Of a DNA stretch of 64,000 bases, positions 923 to 13,107 are shown one piece after another; the first letter of the stretch is position 1, and every line of letters begins with the position of its first letter. A program made the position numbers and the translations under genes. The stretch is from Chthoniobacteraceae bacterium. GTDB lineage: Bacteria; Verrucomicrobiota; Verrucomicrobiia; Chthoniobacterales; Chthoniobacteraceae. The stretch lies in the NCBI GenBank assembly GCA_028293625.1, contig JAQGOL010000028.1, forward strand, positions 1 to 64,000. Direction: 5' to 3'. The notes below the pieces were generated by a model, which made no database searches, was not told the origin of the DNA, and was given only the letters and a program-made list of their open reading frames with translations.

Positions 923-1813
923 TCAGTAACGCATGGCGACGATGTCAATCACCGCCTTTGCCAGCATAAGGCCATCGATTGCGGCGAGGTAGTACAAGAT
1001 CGTCCTCGTTCGTGTAAGCGAGAAGATGCCAGCCACCAGCAGGAGGAATGGAGTCAATACTAGCACTACACGCGGAATCGTGAGGTGCTGCATGGTGGCA
1101 TACGAGAGAAATGTCGCGATGCCAAGCATCGTGAGCGGAAGCGACACCTGAAACAGCGTGCGTTCGAGTCCGACGAGCGTCACGACTGTCGAAAGGCCGG
1201 TGCGCCGATCGTCCTCTCGATCCTTGATGTCGAAGAGGATCGCCAAGACCGCAATAAACATTAGGCTCTTCACGAATAGTAGACACGAGAACAATGTGAA
1301 TGGTGTGTATTGCCCGTATTGCAAGCGAGCGAACAGAACCGGATAGGCGACCACTACACCCGCCCACACGAAGCCGATGACGAACGGTTTGAGCCAACCA
1401 ATCCGCCGCAGAGTGATGACACGTCCCCCCGGAGACTTGTAGTAGAAGCCGGCGACTCCAGGGACGGCAAGCAGTACGATCCACTCAAGGATGGTCATGC
1501 GTCGAATCGCCGCGTTGTGGCGAATTACCACCCAGACGACCAGAGCCAATAGAGCCAGAAGTCCCCAGCCTTGGAGCTGCTGCACGACATCCAGATGTCG
1601 GCGATACCACACGACGCGAGGATCGGTACTACTGGCAGTCTGACGGGTATACGGGTAGCTGTAGAACACGACGGTGCCAATGAATGACACCACGATGAGC
1701 CATCCGTTGACTGGCAACCCAAGCTGCACTGAAGTTTCGATCACTTGCGCGGCGGCACACACTCCGTAAAAGAGATGGCCGTAGAAACACGCTTCGACAA
1801 CGGCGCGCCACAT
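923..1813 (-). CDS. UbiA-like prenyltransferase family membrane protein, first Asp motif missing
   Basis: A 296-residue polytopic membrane protein with about eight hydrophobic segments. The second Asp-rich motif of the UbiA superfamily is recognisable (DIKDREDDRRTG near residue 195, followed by TVVTLVGLERT). The first motif, normally NDxxDxxxD with a basic R-P-L-x-x-G segment, is absent: the matching stretch after the second membrane segment reads SYPYTRQTASSTDP. Related UbiA-like proteins of unknown function lack this motif, so prenyl transfer is doubtful. The ATG at 1813 gives the whole membrane topology. It sits alone between mobile-element remnants and is not part of the operon that carries the intact UbiA gene at 10823-11728. 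Confidence 0.62.
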   Translation of the reverse strand: MWRAVVEACFYGHLFYGVCAAAQVIETSVQLGLPVNGWLIVVSFIGTVVFYSYPYTRQTASSTDPRVVWYRRHLDVVQQLQGWGLLALLALVVWVVIRHNAAIRRMTILEWIVLLAVPGVAGFYYKSPGGRVITLRRIGWLKPFVIGFVWAGVVVAYPVLFARLQYGQYTPFTLFSCLLFVKSLMFIAVLAILFDIKDREDDRRTGLSTVVTLVGLERTLFQVSLPLTMLGIATFLSYATMQHLTIPRVVLVLTPFLLLVAGIFSLTRTRTILYYLAAIDGLMLAKAVIDIVAMRY

Positions 1814-3420: not shown

Positions 3421-4986
3421 TTAGCTTAAAGACGCTCTCAATTCCTCATACAGCACTTTTGCGTTATGCCTTTTGTCCACGGGAATCGTTTTGACGAATT
3501 TGATTTCGTCCAGCCCGGCCCATGCAAGTGAATCGATGAGCGCACGCTGCTCGACGGCCGAGAGCGCCGGCGCCGATTCCACGACCAGAATACGCTTTCC
3601 ATTCACGCTCAGTGTGGCACACCGGCGCGGATAGACTGAGCTCTGAGCGGCGCATTCCACCGTAAACGGGTATAGAAGGCCTTTTTTATCTTCGATTTTC
3701 GCGGCGCAGCGGCCAAGCAGCCAGAGGCGTCCCTTTTCATCAAAGCGGCCTGCATCCCCGGTTCGATGCCATGTAACGTCTTCGACGCGGATTTTTGTCT
3801 CTTTATTACCGGTGCCGTTAAGATAACCGCCGAGGACATGCGCACCGGACACAACAATTTCACCCCACTCACCAGTCCTGACGCGAGTGGCATCGAAATC
3901 GGTTTTTGAAAAGGGGCCCAATGGAGTTCCCCATCGATCAGGAACGATTCGCACGGCTATTTCAGATACAGGAGTGCCGGCAAGCAATCCGCTCCCATTC
4001 CCGATGGCGTCTAGTTCATCCGTACCGAGATCCCCCCAGGCAGCGTGTGCGATTGGCTCCGCTTCTGTGGAGCCGAATACAGCGACTACTTCCGCGGCCG
4101 GGGCAAGCGTTTGCAGTTGCCTGAGAAGTGGATGGAAAACAGGAGCGCCGCCGGTGAAGATCTTGGTAAAATACCGAAGTGCGCCGGGTTCGGCGCCTTC
4201 TGCGAGTCGGTGAAGAAACGCGGGGGAGGCGGCAGTCCGGGTAGGTTGATGGCGCGCTATTTGAGCAAAGATCGGTTTGGGGTCGACCGCGCCAGGCCTG
4301 CGCAGATCCGCGTCAGGGATAAGGCTTGTGACGCCGGAGCCGAGGTTAGCCAGGACAAAGATCGGGAGTGTGGTCAGATCGATTTCGCCTGGAAGCAGGG
4401 TGATGTTCTTTTCAAGCACCCGATGTTGGGCAAGTAGAAATTCGTGAGTTCTCAGCGCTGCTTTGGGCATCCCGGTGCTGCCACTGGTAAAAGTCACCAA
4501 TGCGGGCGTGCCGGGATCACATGGGGTAATTGGATCAAACGGGAGTTCCTTGCACGCACTACTCCAGGCGATCGCGCCGGGCAATGACCAGCCGATGACA
4601 TACTTGCGTGGAATCTTTCGGATGGCAGCCGATGTCAGCCTAAGCAAATGTGCTTTGGTGGAGGCGATGAAAGCTTTGGGCGGCACCATTTCACAACAGC
4701 GCTCAAGATGCGCGCGCCCGCTGGATGGATCAAGGAAGGTGGCAACTAGTCCCAGTCGAAATATGGCAAGTAAAGCGACATAGAGTTCAATCGACATCGG
4801 TTGGAAGATCAGCACCGCGTCGCCCATGCGCAGGCCCGAGGCTTTTAACAACTGAGCCGCGCGCGCTGAAGCTTCATCCAATTGCGCGAAGGTGATAATT
4901 TGGTCGCGACCATTTTTAGTTTCGATAATGGCGGGCGCGTCCGGGCGCTCTCTTGCCTGACAAAGAAGAACCTCGGTCACGTTCAT
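3421..4986 (-). CDS. AMP-forming acyl-CoA synthetase/ligase (ANL superfamily)
   Basis: A 521-residue adenylate-forming enzyme expected to activate a carboxylic acid with ATP, then pass it to CoA or another acceptor. Visible motifs are the phosphate loop TFTSGSTGMPKA near residue 167, a VFGSTEAEP segment in place of the usual YGxTE adenine-binding motif, HRTGDAGRFDEKGRLWLLGR (TGD and hinge) and a C-terminal lysine region around VDKRHNAKV. The N-terminus (LLCQARERPDAPAII) is typical. It is the last gene of the seven-gene operon, and its ATG overlaps the stop of the GNAT gene by ATGA (4983-4986), so translation is probably coupled. No acyl carrier protein is adjacent. The natural substrate is unknown; a fatty or isoprenoid acid is a guess from context. 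Confidence 0.85.
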   Translation of the reverse strand: MNVTEVLLCQARERPDAPAIIETKNGRDQIITFAQLDEASARAAQLLKASGLRMGDAVLIFQPMSIELYVALLAIFRLGLVATFLDPSSGRAHLERCCEMVPPKAFIASTKAHLLRLTSAAIRKIPRKYVIGWSLPGAIAWSSACKELPFDPITPCDPGTPALVTFTSGSTGMPKAALRTHEFLLAQHRVLEKNITLLPGEIDLTTLPIFVLANLGSGVTSLIPDADLRRPGAVDPKPIFAQIARHQPTRTAASPAFLHRLAEGAEPGALRYFTKIFTGGAPVFHPLLRQLQTLAPAAEVVAVFGSTEAEPIAHAAWGDLGTDELDAIGNGSGLLAGTPVSEIAVRIVPDRWGTPLGPFSKTDFDATRVRTGEWGEIVVSGAHVLGGYLNGTGNKETKIRVEDVTWHRTGDAGRFDEKGRLWLLGRCAAKIEDKKGLLYPFTVECAAQSSVYPRRCATLSVNGKRILVVESAPALSAVEQRALIDSLAWAGLDEIKFVKTIPVDKRHNAKVLYEELRASLS

Positions 4987-5873
4987 GAGAGCGACTTGGA
5001 AAAGAGTGTGTAGCGGCGCATCGTGGCTGCGTAATGGCCGCTCAGATTGCGGGAATTATTACTTTCATGCATGAGCGCATGGATGGCCCGCGTATAACCG
5101 AGCTGAGAAGCCGATTCCTGCATTTCCGCAAGTAGCAGTGTCCCCAGGCCGGCCATCTGTCGGCCAGGAAGGACGGCCAGCGACTTTGCAATCACGGTTT
5201 TTATCGGGAGCCCTGTTTTGGCTTCGGCGAAATCGGGCACGGCAAAGACAAAGCCAACGCATTTGAGTTGATCAAAAGCGAGCAGAACCAACTCGGGAAC
5301 AATTGCCTGCCGCACTGGCAGGTAAAGTGATTCAAACTCGGCGTAATCAATCGGGCTATAAAGGAAGTTTTTGTGAAAGCTTCCTATTGAGACCTCGTAA
5401 ATGTGGCGGAGTTCGTGCGCAAACTCAGCGAGTCGGATCGGCCGTATAATAATACCCGCCGATGCTATCCGATGACGCACTTTTTCAATGCGCGGATCCA
5501 TGTAGCCAAGATCGGGATTCAAAGCCGATGTATAGTTTGCGAGTGCGGAGAAGCCCGATGCCACAAAGTATCCGGGCCACTCAGGCGGATTGGTTGGCTC
5601 AAGAAAAAAAGGAGGTTCACTGCCGGCATCGGTAACCAGCCGATAGCTCTTCCATGTGCTGCCGTCCATGGGTCCGATGGCAATCGAGCAACCGTGCGCG
5701 GACAAATGGCGGCATGCTTCGCTCAAAAGGATTGAGGCTGATTCCGGATCGGTTGCGTGGAACTTGCCAATCAATCCGACTTGTTCGCCGGGCATGGATG
5801 GAGAGTTTGTCCACCATAGCGAGCAGTGCGCGCCGTTTGTTTCAGTTAGCACCAGATCCGGGGCTGCGCTCAT
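4983..5873 (-). CDS. GNAT-like N-acyltransferase
   Basis: Starting at the ATG at 5873 gives 296 residues. This start forms an ATGA overlap with the upstream kinase-like gene, so I prefer it to the start at 5939, which would add 22 residues inside that gene. The C-terminal half resembles the GNAT fold: a beta-4 like strand ELVLLAFDQLKCVGFVFAVP, a loop LPGRQMAGLGTLLLAEM in the acyl-CoA-binding motif A position, and a final helix-strand segment. The N-terminal half (GLIGKFHATDPESASILLSE, and AIGPMDGSTWKSYR) is like the large N-acyltransferase proteins that sit next to acyl-CoA ligases. The pairing suggests that the ligase activates an acid and this protein transfers the acyl group. The acceptor is unknown. 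Confidence 0.68.
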   Translation of the reverse strand: MSAAPDLVLTETNGAHCSLWWTNSPSMPGEQVGLIGKFHATDPESASILLSEACRHLSAHGCSIAIGPMDGSTWKSYRLVTDAGSEPPFFLEPTNPPEWPGYFVASGFSALANYTSALNPDLGYMDPRIEKVRHRIASAGIIIRPIRLAEFAHELRHIYEVSIGSFHKNFLYSPIDYAEFESLYLPVRQAIVPELVLLAFDQLKCVGFVFAVPDFAEAKTGLPIKTVIAKSLAVLPGRQMAGLGTLLLAEMQESASQLGYTRAIHALMHESNNSRNLSGHYAATMRRYTLFSKSLS

Positions 5874-7165
5874 AGAAGAAAATGGGGAATAAGACCTAAA
5901 GTGGAAACCACCGGGATACAGAGATTTTCGCGCAACCATTGTGCAAGCCCGGGGCTGGTGTCAGTCGTGCAAGGAAGAGAGGCGTTGTGCGCAAGTCCCG
6001 CAACGAGAATGATGATCGGTGCAGCGAGTGCCTCGATCACGGTGCGTGCCGTTATTGTGTCGATTAAGAGATAGGGGATAAAGAGGATCAACCATCCGCC
6101 AATCACACATTCCAATAAGGGGCGCCTTTGGAGGCTCGAGTTTGTGGCGAGCGCCCGCCGGGTAATACAGATTCCAGCCAGTTGGGCGCCAAGGGTAAGA
6201 TAGAAAAGATAGATGAGTTCCGGTCGTTTGAATTCAAGGGAGATCCCAAGCCAGAAAAGGGGTCCCGCCATGACACGGATGACGGTGTGGACGTTGCTTT
6301 CCCTTTTAATCTCGGGATGTAATGGGCTCAGTGACGGAAATGCCGCGAGGCCGATCAAGGGCGCCAGAAGCCATGGCAGGCCGCCCAGAGCCCAGGCAAC
6401 GTAACAAAGCATGCCTGCGCAGAGTGCGGCGCTGCCATTGAGCGTGGACCGGCGCCGTAGTGGAATGAGAAAAGCGGTAAGCAACACCATCACAACAAGG
6501 CGGACTGCCAGTTCAGTGACACTGAGCGTGACATATATCCGCAGCAGCAAATAGCTCGTTAGAGGAATAAAAAGGTTGTCGAGTCCGCCCCAGGCGATTG
6601 CTTCCATCAACATCACCAGAAAGCCGAGCGCGATACTAATCAGCAGGATTTCGGCCCGGCCAATAGTAGTAAAAAGAAGGAGCGGAATATGTGTGCTGAA
6701 AAAAGCGATTAAAAAAAAGGCCAATGAGCCTTCAACCGACTTTTCGCCTTCATTTGTCCGGTACTTGGAGAGCCCGTATCGGAGTCCGATAAGCGCGCAG
6801 ACGGCGTCAGCGAGGGAAAGGATCAGGATAGGGATGCAGAAAAGGAGCTTATCGCCACGGGCAAGCCAAAATACAATGGCCACGGCAATAGGGAAGTAGA
6901 GTTCGCCCAGCGAGAAGCGTTTTACGCCTCCGAGTACGTTTCCAAGTTGCGCTTTGATCGGGCTTAAAAGCCGCACGGCAAGCAAGGCGACAACGGCCAG
7001 AACAGCCAATAAGGTAACAGGCCAGCTTTCCTGGAAGACCCACGGAAACGTGAGCGTGACCAGACCCATGCCAACGTGCATACCTTTGCGCACCAGTTCA
7101 GGGTGCGGCGACATTCGGCGTTGGATCAGAGCCATGCCACCCATCAGGGAGCCAAGGAGAGCCAT
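5870..7165 (-). CDS. Dolichol/phytol kinase-like polytopic membrane protein with C-terminal extension
   Basis: A 431-residue protein that is almost entirely membrane helices. The first half resembles the SEC59/VTE5/DGK1 family of CTP-dependent lipid alcohol kinases, itself related to CDP-diglyceride synthases: HPELVRKGMHVGMGLVTLTF at residue 21 matches the family's 'R.xxH' opening, and LADAVCALIGLRYGLSKY followed by GEKSVEGSLAFF near residue 125-150 is the CTP-binding 'DaxaaxxGxxxGk...gKTxeGs' motif. The remaining 200 residues add about six more helices that I cannot assign. The start at 7165 lies 26 bases after the BtaA-like gene. In context it could phosphorylate a prenol or diacylglycerol. 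The substrate is inferred, not shown. Confidence 0.68.
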   Translation of the reverse strand: MALLGSLMGGMALIQRRMSPHPELVRKGMHVGMGLVTLTFPWVFQESWPVTLLAVLAVVALLAVRLLSPIKAQLGNVLGGVKRFSLGELYFPIAVAIVFWLARGDKLLFCIPILILSLADAVCALIGLRYGLSKYRTNEGEKSVEGSLAFFLIAFFSTHIPLLLFTTIGRAEILLISIALGFLVMLMEAIAWGGLDNLFIPLTSYLLLRIYVTLSVTELAVRLVVMVLLTAFLIPLRRRSTLNGSAALCAGMLCYVAWALGGLPWLLAPLIGLAAFPSLSPLHPEIKRESNVHTVIRVMAGPLFWLGISLEFKRPELIYLFYLTLGAQLAGICITRRALATNSSLQRRPLLECVIGGWLILFIPYLLIDTITARTVIEALAAPIIILVAGLAHNASLPCTTDTSPGLAQWLRENLCIPVVSTLGLIPHFLL

Positions 7166-7191: not shown

Positions 7192-8289
7192 TCAGATAAC
7201 CTCCTCCACCACAAACGCGCTGTAGAAAAATGCACGATCCCGGCCGTGCAACTCTTTACCTAGAAGCTCGTGGGAACGCAGTTTTTGGGACATGGATTCA
7301 GGCCGGCGCCGTGGAGCCAGCATGTTCCAATAAGCAAGCCGCGCGCCCGGTTTTGCGGCGGTTACCAGTTTCTCGAGGAAAAGCCGGGAATTTTCCTCCG
7401 ACATGTATTCAAATATATCGCTAAGATTGAAGCGATCGATTGAGTTGGGGCCATTTTCCTCGAGAAGTTGCTCGGCAGGCTGGCAGCGCCATTCAAGGCG
7501 ATCGAGGTTTGCGCGAATAAGATCGAAGTTTTCCGGCCGCAGCGCGCACGGCAACGCTGTCGTGTGGGTGCCTGTTAAAATCCACTGGAGATAGGGATTG
7601 TCAGCAGGGTTCAACTCGGTGAGCGCGTAGCTGGTTCGCGCAAGAATCCGATCACCGACGCTTCCCTCCACATACCGGAAGAAACTCGGATCGCGTCCCA
7701 TGTGGCCCATGACAAAGCGCGAGAAAAAGAGTTTAAAAAGAATCCGCCATCGCCAGGTATCCCAGTTCTCGTCGTAAAAACTTTGGCGTTGAAGCGCGCT
7801 TCCTCCTTTGAGCAGTTGCTCGATTCGGCTTCGAGAATGGATCCAAGGCAGGACTTTTTCGCGGAACAAGGCGAAGTAGCGCTCAAACTTCCCTGCGCTG
7901 CCTATCCCATTTATAATTGCCTGCTGGTTGTGGTCCCAGAAGTCGCGAACGCCGCTGGCTAAAAGGGGGCGGCACTTGAGATAATGGTCGACGCGGTGGC
8001 TACTCTGTTTGGAGCCGATTAATTCAAGCAGTTGTGGATGGCTAAGTGCGCGGTACGCGGCGACCCTTAGTTCAAGACAGGCTAGCTGCGAGGGATTGAG
8101 ATCAATGGCGATGACCCGGGCGGGGGAGCGCGTTAGGAGCGCAAGTGCGTTGTCCCCGGCGGACGCGATGGAAAGGCAGGTGTCGCCGGGTTGGATATCG
8201 AGCGCGTCGAGAAGGATATCGGCATCTTCCCAGACCTGCGCATAACGGATCTGGGTGAAATCGGCGTGGTGTGCAGCTTCGCTATTCAT
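7192..8289 (-). CDS. BtaA-like (DUF3419) S-adenosylmethionine 3-amino-3-carboxypropyl transferase
   Basis: A 365-residue protein of the DUF3419 family, whose characterised member BtaA moves the aminocarboxypropyl group of S-adenosylmethionine to diacylglycerol to give the homoserine lipid precursor of betaine lipids. The N-terminal signature YAQVWEDADILLDALDI is followed by the nucleotide-binding loop LSIASAGDNALALL (residues 39-52) and AIDLNPSQ. The central GKFERYFALFREKVLPWIHS and the late LSDIFEYMSEENSR are also family hallmarks. Its start overlaps the end of the PEP-utilising gene by 8 bases. No BtaB-type N-methyltransferase is in the operon, so the product may stay unmethylated or the acceptor may not be diacylglycerol. 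Confidence 0.8.
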   Translation of the reverse strand: MNSEAAHHADFTQIRYAQVWEDADILLDALDIQPGDTCLSIASAGDNALALLTRSPARVIAIDLNPSQLACLELRVAAYRALSHPQLLELIGSKQSSHRVDHYLKCRPLLASGVRDFWDHNQQAIINGIGSAGKFERYFALFREKVLPWIHSRSRIEQLLKGGSALQRQSFYDENWDTWRWRILFKLFFSRFVMGHMGRDPSFFRYVEGSVGDRILARTSYALTELNPADNPYLQWILTGTHTTALPCALRPENFDLIRANLDRLEWRCQPAEQLLEENGPNSIDRFNLSDIFEYMSEENSRLFLEKLVTAAKPGARLAYWNMLAPRRRPESMSQKLRSHELLGKELHGRDRAFFYSAFVVEEVI

Positions 8290-10816
8290 GTGGGATGCGG
8301 CGAACGAGACCGGTTGAACCGTCTAGTTCGACCATGTCTCCGTCTTGGAGGATAAGCGTTAGGTTGCTAATAGAGACAACGGCCGGGATACCAAGCTCTC
8401 TTGCCACAATGGCGGAGTGCGACAACAGGCTTCCAAACTCAACCAACAGCCCCGCGGCGGACGGGAATAGCATGATCCAGCCAGGATCGGTGCGTTGCGC
8501 CACCAGGATCTCGCCGGGTTTGATTTCAGCTCCCCGTGGCTCAAGGATCACTCGGACGATACCGCGCACGATTCCCGGGCAGCAACCAATACCCTGGAGT
8601 TGTTCAGTCGCTATGAGAGAAGAACTATCCTTTTTTTCAGAAAGATAAGTGTTGCCGCTGTTGACCGTGCCGCGCGTTACAAAACGCTCGGACGGTGCTG
8701 TGCCATTCCTGTGCCCGTCAAATTCCGCCTGTCGCAGGGCGGCAAGTCCGCGCAGGTTCTTCCCGACCGTGGTGCCTTCCACAAACCCGAGCGCTTCCTC
8801 CACCGTGAGATTAAAAATATCCGAAGGATGATCAAGCACGCCGAGTTCGAGATAGCGTTTGCCTAGTTCCAGGAAAATCCGGCGCACGCGTCCGAAAAGA
8901 CGGGTTCTTTCAAAGCGGAGGTTTTCCCGGTCGCGAACCCTGGCGCGTGCATGTTTCAGGATCCAAAAGAAGAAAGTGCCTTTTAAAGGATTGCCGCGCA
9001 AGGCTTCCTTCACGCGCGCCTCTGTTTGGCCGCGGTGGTTATCGGCTGGAATGTGCTCTGCCGGCTTGCGTGCCGCGAGATGGCCAACGGCGCGAAATAA
9101 AGAGAGCGGATCGTCGTGGAGCGTTTTGCTTTCAAGCTTGAGTTCTTCAAGGCAGCGGTCGCCGAACTTCTCAATATAGGCATTGTAAAGGGCATTAAAT
9201 CTAGCGTGCTGGACAAGCTTGGCGTTGATCTCGCGCAGGGAACCGCGGCCTAAAAGATTGGCCAGTTCCGGAGAAAGCGCCGCCACTTCCGCCATCTCCC
9301 GGACACGCCGGGCGGGTTCAGCGCTGATCATTTCGCCTCCGGCGCAAAGCAAATCGTTTTGAAGGCTGCCATTCGCGTCGCCGCACCATTTTTGCGCTAG
9401 CCGTTTGGAGACGCCATAGAAGATCATCGCCAGGAAGTCATTGACCAGTGGCGCGTCCCATCGGGTGAGCAACTGTTTTTCCAGATCGCGATAGGCGCCT
9501 GCCAGCTGGTCCGGCCTCATTTCTTCAAGTGCCGGGCTCGGTTCCTTAAGGGAGTCATTGAGCCGGGCATGGAAACGTTTGATGTTAGCCGGAAGGCGAA
9601 GATGATTTGAAATCAGGCCGATTACCGTGCGGCCAATATCGAGTGCATCCTTTAGCTTTTCGGCTGGAGTAGAAGGGAGCTTGATGGGAAGCGCACCCTC
9701 GGGGAGCCCCTCTTTGACGCCCATCATTTGCTCCATGAACTGGCTGTTAATTTTGTAGCCCGGCAACAACGCCAATACACGATACCAGTTTAGCAGATTG
9801 TAGTAGACGCGTCCGTTGATGAGGCCGAGCATTCGCTGAAAGGTATCCCGGTTATCGGCGATCCTGGAGGTAGGGACACCCATGAGCTTGCAGAACTGCC
9901 GGTAGACCTCCTCATAGATGCCACGCGCAAATGAGAATGTGAGCGGAGTGGTGATGCCGCTGTAGCTTTCGGCAATGTTGCTGTTATCCCAGAGGTTAAA
10001 TGCGCCCGAGGGATCGACCATGTTGCGCAAGGAGGTAATTGGCCGCGATTGGAGAAGGAAAAGTTTGTCATCCTCGCGCGCCCATTCGATATCCTGCGGA
10101 ATGCCAAAGTAACGATTCGCGCGCCGCGCAAGTTCGCGAATTTCCTGTGCCTGCGGCGTCGTTAAAACGGGCGTTTCGGCGCCGTTTGATTGGGAGAGTG
10201 AAACTAGCTTGCCGGTGGAATCGATATGGTAGGTGTCAGCATTCTCCTCGCCGGAAACCAGCTTATCCCCAAGACCGCGCACAGCCGCGATCACTGTCAT
10301 ATCGCGGCGCCCGGTCACGGGGTCGGCGCCGAAAGCGACCCCGGCGCTCCCGGCATTAATCATTCGTTGTATCAGAACAGCCGGGGCACCCGTCCGCGCG
10401 GAAGAAAGGCCTCGTTCTCTTCGATAAGCGAGTACGCGCTCGCTAAATGCCGACCGCCAGACTGCGGCGACTTTGGCGGCTACTTCCGTGGCGGGAACTA
10501 AAAGGTAGCTTTCAAATTGACCGGCAAAGGAATGTTCGCTGCCATCTTCATCGAGCGCGGAGGAGCGGACTGCGAAGGTGGCCGCTTCCGGAATGGCGTT
10601 GCCTAGCGCGGCTTCGATTTCCCTGATGACTCTGGCGCAAGGAAGTGCGGGGAGGGTAGCCGCTCCATTGGCGCTGGCCTCAAAGGAGGCGGGGAGCACA
10701 ACGAACCATTCCGGGACACTAAATCCAGCTTCATGGAGTTGAGCCAGGGCGCGCGCTTTTCCGCCTAGTAATGGCGCCTGGGATGGTTCGAGTGAAAAGG
10801 CAATGAATTCGGACAT
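8282..10816 (-). CDS. PEP-utilising ATP-dependent phosphotransferase, rifampin phosphotransferase (RPH)-like
   Basis: The ATG at 10816 gives 844 residues; a TTG six bases upstream is less likely. Domain order: an ATP-grasp pyruvate-phosphate-dikinase domain (residues 1-265; GGKARALAQLHEAGFSVPEW, FAVRSSALDEDGSEHSFAGQ, IEWAREDDKLFLLQSRP), a long helical middle (about 280-690) of the kind that binds the substrate in RPH, and a C-terminal swivelling domain with the phosphohistidine loop GSLLSHSAIVARELGIPAVV. There is no TIM-barrel PEP-binding domain after the histidine domain, so this is not a PEP synthase or PPDK. RPH enzymes phosphorylate a hydroxyl of a small molecule with ATP, giving AMP and phosphate. 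The substrate is presumably an intermediate of this operon's pathway. Confidence 0.78.
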   Translation of the reverse strand: MSEFIAFSLEPSQAPLLGGKARALAQLHEAGFSVPEWFVVLPASFEASANGAATLPALPCARVIREIEAALGNAIPEAATFAVRSSALDEDGSEHSFAGQFESYLLVPATEVAAKVAAVWRSAFSERVLAYRRERGLSSARTGAPAVLIQRMINAGSAGVAFGADPVTGRRDMTVIAAVRGLGDKLVSGEENADTYHIDSTGKLVSLSQSNGAETPVLTTPQAQEIRELARRANRYFGIPQDIEWAREDDKLFLLQSRPITSLRNMVDPSGAFNLWDNSNIAESYSGITTPLTFSFARGIYEEVYRQFCKLMGVPTSRIADNRDTFQRMLGLINGRVYYNLLNWYRVLALLPGYKINSQFMEQMMGVKEGLPEGALPIKLPSTPAEKLKDALDIGRTVIGLISNHLRLPANIKRFHARLNDSLKEPSPALEEMRPDQLAGAYRDLEKQLLTRWDAPLVNDFLAMIFYGVSKRLAQKWCGDANGSLQNDLLCAGGEMISAEPARRVREMAEVAALSPELANLLGRGSLREINAKLVQHARFNALYNAYIEKFGDRCLEELKLESKTLHDDPLSLFRAVGHLAARKPAEHIPADNHRGQTEARVKEALRGNPLKGTFFFWILKHARARVRDRENLRFERTRLFGRVRRIFLELGKRYLELGVLDHPSDIFNLTVEEALGFVEGTTVGKNLRGLAALRQAEFDGHRNGTAPSERFVTRGTVNSGNTYLSEKKDSSSLIATEQLQGIGCCPGIVRGIVRVILEPRGAEIKPGEILVAQRTDPGWIMLFPSAAGLLVEFGSLLSHSAIVARELGIPAVVSISNLTLILQDGDMVELDGSTGLVRRIPHE

Positions 10817-10822
10817 GATCAA

Positions 10823-11728
10823 TTACTGGCAGAGAGTGCGGATGAGCATTGGGACAGCGCCGAGAGCCAGATACATGGTGAGCGTCCAAACTCCGGCGAA
10901 CAGTTCGAAGCGTTTCCCGCTTTTGGGTGACCGCAAAAACGAGAGAGAAATAATCAGCGCCAATCCGACCAGAAGCGTGAGGAGCAGCAAGATGGGCCGG
11001 GCAAAGCTGATATGGGTGGCGGCAATGGAAGCGCTTGCAGCGGTTGCCACCAGGATAAGCAGCCAGGCGCGGATCGACGTGGCGGCGCCCCATTGCGCGC
11101 TGTAGGTTGGCACCCCGGGTTCTTCATCCTGAGGTGCGCGGATTTTGCGTCCGATCTCAATGACGATGCCGTTGAAAAAGCTGACAATTAAAAACCAGAT
11201 CAGCCCGCGTGGCAATGAAGCGCCGGCCACGGTCCAATCGCATGCGGTGGCGTATAGATCGACCAACGGCATGATGAGCATGTGAGTCCAAAGATAGGTG
11301 ACTGGCCGGGCTTTCAGCCAATCGCGCGCAAAGAACTCCTGGGTCATCAAAAAGAGGTAGGCCCACGCGATGGCAAGCACCCAGATCAGCGCCGGTTTAA
11401 GCCAAAGCGCGAGGCCCGCTTGAATCGCCGCCGTGAGCGCCCATAGCCAGCCAAGTTCCCGGAGGCTGATCAGTCCGCGCGGGACGGGCCGGTAAGGGCG
11501 GTAAAGCGAATCCTCTTCGAAATCTTTAAATTCATCGGCAATGCGAAGCTGAAGAAAAAAGAAGAGCGAAGTAATGAAGGCGACCAGGCAGGAGCGCCAA
11601 TCGGGGAAATGAATGCTGCCGCGCAGGAGGGCCGAGAAGCTCACGGCGGATAAGCTGAACGCGGCTATGAGCGGTCCATGGGCGAGGATTGGGAAACGCT
11701 CGCGTTGATAGATCCACCATTTGTTCAT
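10823..11728 (-). CDS. UbiA superfamily prenyltransferase
   Basis: A 301-residue integral membrane protein with about eight to nine helices. The first Asp-rich motif is intact: LRIADEFKDFEEDSLYRPYR then PVPRGLIS, which holds the Mg-diphosphate Asp residues and the basic loop. The second motif region reads EIGRKIRAPQDEEPGVPTYS, with the acidic cluster and the tyrosine-serine end. This type attaches a prenyl diphosphate to an acceptor in the membrane. The gene follows HMG-CoA reductase with an ATGA overlap (11725-11728) and precedes the phosphotransferase by six bases. The acceptor cannot be read from the sequence; quinone, haem or chlorophyll genes are not adjacent, which argues against a routine role in those pathways. 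Confidence 0.83.
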   Translation of the reverse strand: MNKWWIYQRERFPILAHGPLIAAFSLSAVSFSALLRGSIHFPDWRSCLVAFITSLFFFLQLRIADEFKDFEEDSLYRPYRPVPRGLISLRELGWLWALTAAIQAGLALWLKPALIWVLAIAWAYLFLMTQEFFARDWLKARPVTYLWTHMLIMPLVDLYATACDWTVAGASLPRGLIWFLIVSFFNGIVIEIGRKIRAPQDEEPGVPTYSAQWGAATSIRAWLLILVATAASASIAATHISFARPILLLLTLLVGLALIISLSFLRSPKSGKRFELFAGVWTLTMYLALGAVPMLIRTLCQ

Positions 11729-12999
11729 GGCTGGGTTCCCCGTGCCAGTTTTGCGTGGGCACCTGTGAATTGATGGGCGCTGAGTGCGGCGATGATTGAG
11801 ATTTCACCGGCAAGCGCCAGTGCGGCGGCTACTTCGGCAAAGGCCCGGGCGTGCCCGGTGCCATTCAAACCGAGCAGTTCCAAACAAGCGGATTGACTTG
11901 GCAGCTTGGTACCGCCGCCCACCGTGCCGACAATCAGGTTGGGGAGAGTAACCGCGGCATAGAGACTGTTATCCGGGAGCGCTTCGAACCTTGTAATTCC
12001 AACGGCTGACTCGGAAACGCAGGCGGCATCCTGGCCCGTGGCAATGTAAAGGGCAGCCAGACCGTTTGCGTAATGGCCCTGGACGCCGATGGTGCCGCTA
12101 AGGACGCCGCCAAGCGCCGACATGCGCCAGTAGTTTTCCATGGCACGCGCCGTTGTATGAAGCCGTCGCGCGATCAGTTCGGCTGACAGGTTTACTTCCG
12201 CTGAAATTTTTCGGCCGCGCACCGATTGAAACGATTGGGCGCTGGCTTTCTTGTCGCCGGAGAAGTTGGATTCGACAAAAAAGTAGTCGGGAGTTACGGG
12301 GGTATGCACCTTGATAAAATCGCAGATGGCCTGGGTGGCAATGGTCACCATGTTTTGACCAGCCGCATCCCCTGTAAGAAACTCAAAGTTAAGGTAGACA
12401 TGATTGCCTTCCACGGTCACCCGCATATCGGCAAGCTTGCCGTGCCGGGTAGTCGCTTCGGCTTCTATTTTGAACGCGTCGATTTGGGAAAGCGCCCATG
12501 TAATAAAAACGCCGACGTCAATCAGCGACTTGAATGCAAATCCCGGAGCGCGGCTGACTCCTTCCGCCAACAGTAACGCGGTGCATCCTCCCGACTCGCT
12601 AATGACAATGGCCCCTCTGTGATAGGAGGCAACCAGCGCGGCTTCCGTGGTTGCCAGCGGGAGGTAGTAATCGCCCTGCGCATGAAGTCCGTTGACGCGC
12701 AGCGGCCCGGCGATTCCAACCGGGATTTTTACGGTGCCGATGAAGTTCTCAATGTTGCCACCGTAAGCCGCGTGCCGTTCACGCGTTTTCGGATCAAACA
12801 ATTCATCCCTGCACTGGTTGGAGTTTGGAAGAAGCTTCCATCGGCGCTCGACCGCCTCGGGGTTGCTTAAAGAAGCGCCCGGCACACGCGGCGGCAGCTT
12901 GGTTGTCTTGCTACTAAGAAGATTCCTGAGCGTTTCCTCCGTGGCATCTTCGAACATCCGCTTGAGATGAGCGCCGACACTTTGTGAATTCGTTGGCAT
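11725..12999 (-). CDS. Class I hydroxymethylglutaryl-CoA reductase
   Basis: A catalytic-domain-only HMG-CoA reductase of 424 residues from the ATG at 12999; a GTG at 13020 would add seven residues. It makes mevalonate from HMG-CoA with NADPH. Clear class I signatures are ENFIGTVKIPVGIAGPL, LPLATTEAALVASYHRG (catalytic Glu), TGDAAGQNMVTIAT (NADPH and catalytic Asp), LPNLIVGTVGGGT, and the C-terminal LALAGEISIIAALSAHQF with the late catalytic His. There is no membrane anchor. It is the first gene of the seven-gene operon, with a 210-base leader containing a strong hairpin. No other mevalonate-pathway gene is in the window. Either it feeds a local isoprenoid pathway or it is a second, pathway-dedicated copy. 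Confidence 0.93.
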   Translation of the reverse strand: MPTNSQSVGAHLKRMFEDATEETLRNLLSSKTTKLPPRVPGASLSNPEAVERRWKLLPNSNQCRDELFDPKTRERHAAYGGNIENFIGTVKIPVGIAGPLRVNGLHAQGDYYLPLATTEAALVASYHRGAIVISESGGCTALLLAEGVSRAPGFAFKSLIDVGVFITWALSQIDAFKIEAEATTRHGKLADMRVTVEGNHVYLNFEFLTGDAAGQNMVTIATQAICDFIKVHTPVTPDYFFVESNFSGDKKASAQSFQSVRGRKISAEVNLSAELIARRLHTTARAMENYWRMSALGGVLSGTIGVQGHYANGLAALYIATGQDAACVSESAVGITRFEALPDNSLYAAVTLPNLIVGTVGGGTKLPSQSACLELLGLNGTGHARAFAEVAAALALAGEISIIAALSAHQFTGAHAKLARGTQP

Positions 13000-13107
13000 A
13001 AACTCGGGCGAGCGTAGCACGAAGGAGTTCCATGGCGTTTGCTTTTTTAATGGCTCATAAAAAGGCGCGTAAACAACTGGGGCCGCATGTCCATTTCACA
13101 GCTGGCA

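Follow-up and report, generated by a model that had tools for sequence, protein, structure and literature searches.

Rifampin phosphotransferase (RPH) and the phenol dikinase HpeHI transfer the β-phosphate of ATP, by way of a histidine, onto a second substrate and release AMP and inorganic phosphate (Pi). HpeHI acts on hydroxyacetophenones (PMC12167813); like its relatives CreHI and PpsAB it is catabolic, takes phenolic substrates and is built from two polypeptides. Here we describe a predicted single-chain dikinase encoded on contig JAQGOL010000028.1 of a Chthoniobacteraceae bacterium (Verrucomicrobiota), of which a stretch of 64,000 nucleotides, the window, was analysed. The protein is RPH-like in build, lies outside RPH proper and belongs to a seven-gene operon that points to a lipid pathway.

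A three-domain dikinase related to, but distinct from, RPH

A first-pass annotation had placed at 8282–10816 a protein ordered as ATP-grasp domain, helical middle and C-terminal phosphohistidine domain, devoid of a phosphoenolpyruvate (PEP) barrel; Pfam and an AF2 model agree with this. The open reading frame spans 8282–10822 on the minus strand, with its ATG at 10816, and encodes 844 residues from there. Residue numbering used here starts at the TTG at 10822, which is +2 relative to that ATG.

8282–10816, minus strand: predicted single-chain, three-domain ATP-dependent small-molecule dikinase (open reading frame list, Pfam, NCBIfam, alignment, AF2 model)
10010–10816, minus strand: ATP-grasp domain; K22, R86, S105, E246, Q258 and R260 correspond to RPH K22, R117, T136, E297, Q309 and R311
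8618–10015, minus strand: helical middle, substrate-side domain; A284/E285 replace RPH Q336/Q337, and R632/E633 correspond to RPH R666/E667
8297–8614, minus strand: C-terminal swivel phosphohistidine domain; predicted catalytic His802, codon 8417–8419

Pfam matches are confined to PPDK_N (residues 66–266, 161 bits) and PEP-utilizers (767–838, 84 bits), with no match to a PEP/pyruvate barrel across the whole protein. We aligned 47 orthologues from many phyla along the length of the dikinase, all with the catalytic residues retained, and thus regard the frame as a real gene. The catalytic histidine and ATP-site residues are kept in every orthologue readable there, the position of RPH Thr136 being Ser or Thr, and R632/E633 are present in 47/47.

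The AF2 model (pLDDT 88.4, pTM 0.84) finds its best PDB match, a whole-chain one, in RPH-Lm (5hv1; 741 residues aligned, Z 29.1, root mean square deviation (RMSD) 10.1 Å, 24% identity). Domains arranged differently may account for the large RMSD. Structures of PEP synthase and pyruvate phosphate dikinase match it chiefly in the ATP-grasp and swivel domains.

The label ‘RPH-type’ given at first pass holds for domain order and fold, and does not hold for family membership. RPH-Lm (5hv1/5fbs) shares the three-domain order, the ATP-site residues K22, R117 and T136 (the last a conservative change to S105), the catalytic His825 (H802) and the Arg666/Glu667 phosphotransfer pair; residue roles are from PMC4844700. 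Against this, the RPH glutamines Gln336/Gln337 are replaced by Ala or Val at 284 and Glu at 285 in 47/47 orthologues, and K670 is Arg in 47/47. Five rifampin contacts are altered in an alignment at ~25% identity: Y351A, V368Y (Y341), L478R (R454), F479W (W455) and M673R (R639). Of these, R454, R639, Y341 and W455 suggest, as far as the alignment carries, a more polar pocket than the hydrophobic one of RPH. Identity to RPH-Lm is 24.9%, below the >42% of clade A (PMC4844700), and the RPH model NF041857 gives 257 bits (cut-off 999), whereas true RPHs score 1,448 and 1,605. The score, the replaced glutamines and rifampin contacts, and a separate clade in the tree place the dikinase outside RPH; its genomic setting also differs.

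The closest NCBIfam match is NF004881 ‘phosphoenolpyruvate synthase’ (PRK06241.2-2), which covers almost the whole length at 742 bits but stays under its cut-off of 883. The name is ill-suited to a protein devoid of the PEP barrel, and the PEP synthase model TIGR01418 reaches 199.9 bits (cut-off 739.75), in line with the first-pass view that this is not a PEP synthase. The prodiginine ligases PigC and RedH share the layout and a Glu at the site of RPH Q337, and their models score slightly above that of RPH: 287.6 bits for PigC (NF052631, cut-off 1,300) and 296.8 for RedH (NF052632, cut-off 1,350). Both values are far below the curated cut-offs (PigC gives 1,565 bits with its own model); identity to PigC is 28.4%, and no pyrrole pathway genes lie by the dikinase. 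HpeHI, CreHI and PpsAB have the same catalytic modules, and AMP-forming chemistry on small molecules is theirs (PMC12167813). The dikinase thus has the ATP-grasp, phosphohistidine swivel and non-pyruvate substrate domain of small-molecule dikinases in the broad sense. The assumption that this architecture otherwise serves to modify a drug does not survive the comparison: because non-drug enzymes such as HpeHI share the build, domain order by itself is no pointer to an antibiotic ancestor.

A quick tree unites the operon dikinases (support 94); Streptomyces relatives branch closest to them and RPH and PigC stand apart, although the long PigC and RPH branches leave the deep joins unsure. These nearest references are two PEP/pyruvate-binding proteins linked to AfsA-type genes, 32–33% identical to the dikinase and set in a different operon. 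Both are plasmid-borne (L026, 6733–9423; L027, 9578–12421) and adjoin AfsA-like and isoprenylcysteine methyltransferase-like genes, in what may be a signalling-molecule pathway that likewise employs a dikinase.

A conserved seven-gene operon

The dikinase gene lies among seven minus-strand genes that overlap or nearly touch, in agreement with the lipid-type cluster recognised at first pass. Its six partners, in the order of transcription, are:

11725–13020, minus strand: homologue of class-I 3-hydroxy-3-methylglutaryl-CoA (HMG-CoA) reductase (HMGR), predicted fatty acyl-CoA reductase with FcrA-type S684E, loss of K735, and L862F
10823–11728, minus strand: UbiA-family membrane transferase; DEFKD motif retained, second Asp motif changed to EIGRKIRAPxDEE
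7192–8289, minus strand: DUF3419 protein, BtaA-like 3-amino-3-carboxypropyl transferase (PF11899, 240.9 bits, gathering cut-off 28.2)
5870–7165, minus strand: polytopic membrane protein with prenol/dolichol-kinase-like motifs (RK..H, D..A..G, KS.EG)
4983–5939, minus strand: GNAT acyltransferase (profile search of window proteins)
3421–4986, minus strand: AMP-forming acyl ligase, PRK09274/OleC-like (profile searches of window proteins)

Scans for promoters and terminators in the window performed no better than on shuffled sequence. About 1.6 kb downstream of the operon is a more distant second UbiA-like membrane protein (923–1813, minus strand), which scores 27.6 bits with PF01040, short of the cut-off.

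Scanning genome contigs with the middle domain gave at least 80 loci; in most of these, taken together with a Roseinatronobacter plasmid (L025), the genes keep the same strand and order. Operon genes were counted by tblastn, naive picking of open reading frames having given an undercount. Of the 42 loci in which the dikinase is flanked on either side by at least 6 kb, 41 have UbiA, 39 DUF3419, 39 GNAT, 37 the AMP-ligase, 32 the membrane kinase-like protein and 27 the HMGR homologue; the complete set of seven is present in 27. Full sets are found in at least 12 phyla: Verrucomicrobiota, Lentisphaerota, Planctomycetota, Alpha- and Gammaproteobacteria, Acidobacteriota, Thermodesulfobacteriota, Nitrospirota, Bacteroidota/Rhodothermota, Chloroflexota, Deinococcota, Gemmatimonadota and others, although many of these genomes are metagenome-assembled (MAGs) and single phylum assignments may be wrong. 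Within the phylum of the window the dikinase is patchy (18 of 288 genomes), and phyla are intermingled in its tree, which makes horizontal spread likely.

Orthologue distances of the dikinase correlate with those of GNAT (rho 0.87), AMP-ligase (0.85), UbiA (0.81) and, less strongly, the HMGR homologue (0.56), with 0/200 permutations as high in each case. The HMGR–UbiA pair is uncorrelated (0.10), unlike most pairs of operon genes. Where the FcrA-like and prenol-kinase-like genes are missing the dikinase persists, nearly always beside UbiA. We found no homologue of the HMGR gene in six genomes that carry the operon core (five Cyanobacteria and one Blastocatellia MAG). Most cyanobacterial versions, which also do without the kinase-like gene, have UbiA preceded by a radical SAM-SPASM protein, an eight-transmembrane protein and a small membrane protein (L032, L034, L038, L039, L048, L049, L051, L052, L062 and L071). 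These replacement genes had been considered as thiolase, HMG-CoA synthase and DUF35, an assignment that we rejected. The eight-transmembrane protein, which is unannotated and made of two similar halves, tentatively recalls CrtYcd-type lycopene cyclases. Some Verrucomicrobiota (L124–L130) have a rearranged version in which the FcrA-type gene directly adjoins that of DUF3419. MMPL-family exporter genes lie in or beside the operon at L081, L082, L083, L084, L086, L090 and L101, as might be expected for a lipid transported across the membrane.

A predicted FcrA-like reductase in place of HMGR

FcrA is a fatty acyl-CoA reductase that acts on long-chain acyl-CoA, not HMG-CoA, and is distinguished from HMGR by Glu at S684, a small residue at K735 and a bulky aromatic at L862 (Grossi et al., PMC11948995). 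In HMGR itself, Lys735 forms a salt bridge with the HMG carboxylate (PMC9500038); PMC11948995 prints the replaced lysine as Lys795, which by sequence and by other papers is Lys735. All 37 operon HMGR homologues carry S684E and L862F, and position 735 is never Lys (37/37), the exact partner residue hinging on one gap. The catalytic E559, K691, D767 and H866 are retained in 37/37 and R590 is also conserved. By comparison, all seven readable canonical HMGRs from the phylum of the window keep S, K and L at 684, 735 and 862. The operon-type copies found in a search of that phylum show the E/small/F signature, and nearly all have further operon genes within the short stretch read around them, L131 being the exception. 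With all three discriminating residues in place, we predict that the operon protein is FcrA-like and reduces fatty acyl-CoA. Published FcrA contexts differ, the neighbouring genes being for wax esters or possibly for ether lipids, and FcrA has been proposed to feed ether lipid synthesis; the main text of PMC11948995 makes no mention of the seven-gene operon.

The 28 operon-bearing genomes yielded no HMG-CoA synthase (0/28) and no mevalonate kinase above cut-off (0/28), and Dxr of the methylerythritol phosphate (MEP) pathway is present in 24/28. The pathway very likely starts from a fatty alcohol rather than mevalonate, and the prenol or mevalonate chemistry raised at first pass is contradicted.

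Proposed role of the dikinase

That the dikinase phosphorylates a pathway intermediate is plausible from these comparisons. Specifically, we propose, at a probability of roughly 45%, that it is dedicated to the seven-gene lipid pathway and acts on a polar head-group intermediate, phosphorylating a hydroxyl (or enol) on it in a step next to UbiA. By analogy with RPH and HpeHI, the mechanism would run through a phosphohistidine: the ATP-grasp domain would pass the β-phosphate of ATP to His802, giving AMP and Pi; the swivel domain would carry the phosphate ~50 Å to the middle domain; and R632/E633 would help to transfer it to the hydroxyl (or enol). We infer the substrate and the order of steps, placing the dikinase step beside that of UbiA because UbiA is its nearest and most constant partner. 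A polar head group is a more likely substrate than a fatty alcohol, since the dikinase persists in the absence of the FcrA-like and kinase-like genes and since charged and aromatic residues replace the hydrophobic rifampin contacts. Its retention in genomes where we found no HMGR/FcrA homologue likewise indicates that the FcrA product is not obligatory for it.

Several points weigh against head-group phosphorylation. Co-location with lipid genes is no proof of phosphorylation, the substrate being deduced from context. The PigC and RedH models outscore that of RPH (288 and 297 against 257 bits), so that a condensing role would fit equally well by sequence, and the case for a polar pocket depends on the alignment at ~25% identity. 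The assignment of the 5870–7165 membrane protein as a kinase is also weak, being drawn from motifs and from weak DUF92 matches (in 9/34 orthologues); a model of this protein found no PDB match, which is uninformative either way.

A real rival, ranking close behind although we consider it somewhat improbable, is a ligase of the PigC/RedH kind, in which transient phosphorylation of a carbonyl or hydroxyl drives the condensation of two lipid building blocks and leaves a phosphate-free product. Beyond the model scores, PigC matches the dikinase in domain order, in the conserved Glu at the A284/E285 site (GE in PigC), in the Arg/Glu pair and in the Lys-to-Arg change, and a further candidate kinase is present in the operon. 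The shared residues are, however, general to the broader family and recur in the AfsA-linked Streptomyces relatives; the dikinase is far under both ligase cut-offs, and in the quick tree it occupies a separate clade, whereas PigC, with its long branch, is placed next to RPH.

The usual reaction of UbiA enzymes involves ionisation of an allylic diphosphate. This bears on an unlikely third option, an ether-lipid pathway in which the FcrA-made fatty alcohol would receive one phosphate from the dikinase and another from the membrane kinase before UbiA turned it into an alkyl ether. The FcrA-like gene that opens the operon, the UbiA gene adjoining the dikinase and the ether-lipid role proposed for FcrA (PMC11948995) all speak for it, but a saturated alkyl diphosphate would not permit the usual ionisation, the aligned pocket appears polar and the dikinase is kept where no FcrA homologue was found.

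A true rifampin phosphotransferase conferring drug resistance, to which the layout, the best full-length structural match and the conserved catalytic residues might point, is highly improbable given a score so far below those of real RPHs, the A/E replacement of Q336/Q337, the five altered rifampin contacts and a gene locked in a conserved biosynthetic operon, and here the first-pass doubt about a drug was well placed. Equally remote is a mevalonate or prenol kinase serving an alternative isoprenoid route begun by the operon HMGR: its annotation and its UbiA and prenol-kinase-like neighbours would suit one, yet it lacks Ser684 and the carboxylate-binding Lys735 (PMC9500038), and the FcrA signature, the missing HMG-CoA synthase and mevalonate kinase and the presence of Dxr make this reading very unlikely, as does the occurrence of the dikinase without the HMGR gene.

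A possible unrecognised lipid pathway

We give about even odds to the broader view that the operon encodes an unrecognised, horizontally spread pathway to a new lipid class (assembled from a fatty alcohol, a group attached by UbiA and an aminocarboxypropyl head that is N-acylated), with the dikinase performing either a new head-group phosphorylation or a phosphate-driven bond formation. A search for the operon by its parts found no description in the literature covered, most subscription journals and preprints lying outside it. If the view is right, mistaken labels (PEP synthase, HMG-CoA reductase, DUF3419) have concealed a lipid pathway common to at least a dozen bacterial phyla, the first gene of this pathway encodes a recently described type of enzyme that supplies fatty alcohol, and AMP-forming small-molecule dikinases gain lipids as substrates in addition to drugs, phenols and pyrroles. 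Since cultured hosts exist, the product can be sought directly: the operon is carried by Desulfobulbus rhabdoformis, Natronospirillum operosum, Methylomonas sp. SURF-1 and Alkalilimnicola ehrlichii, and the version without the FcrA-like and kinase-like genes by strains of Calothrix and Oscillatoria.

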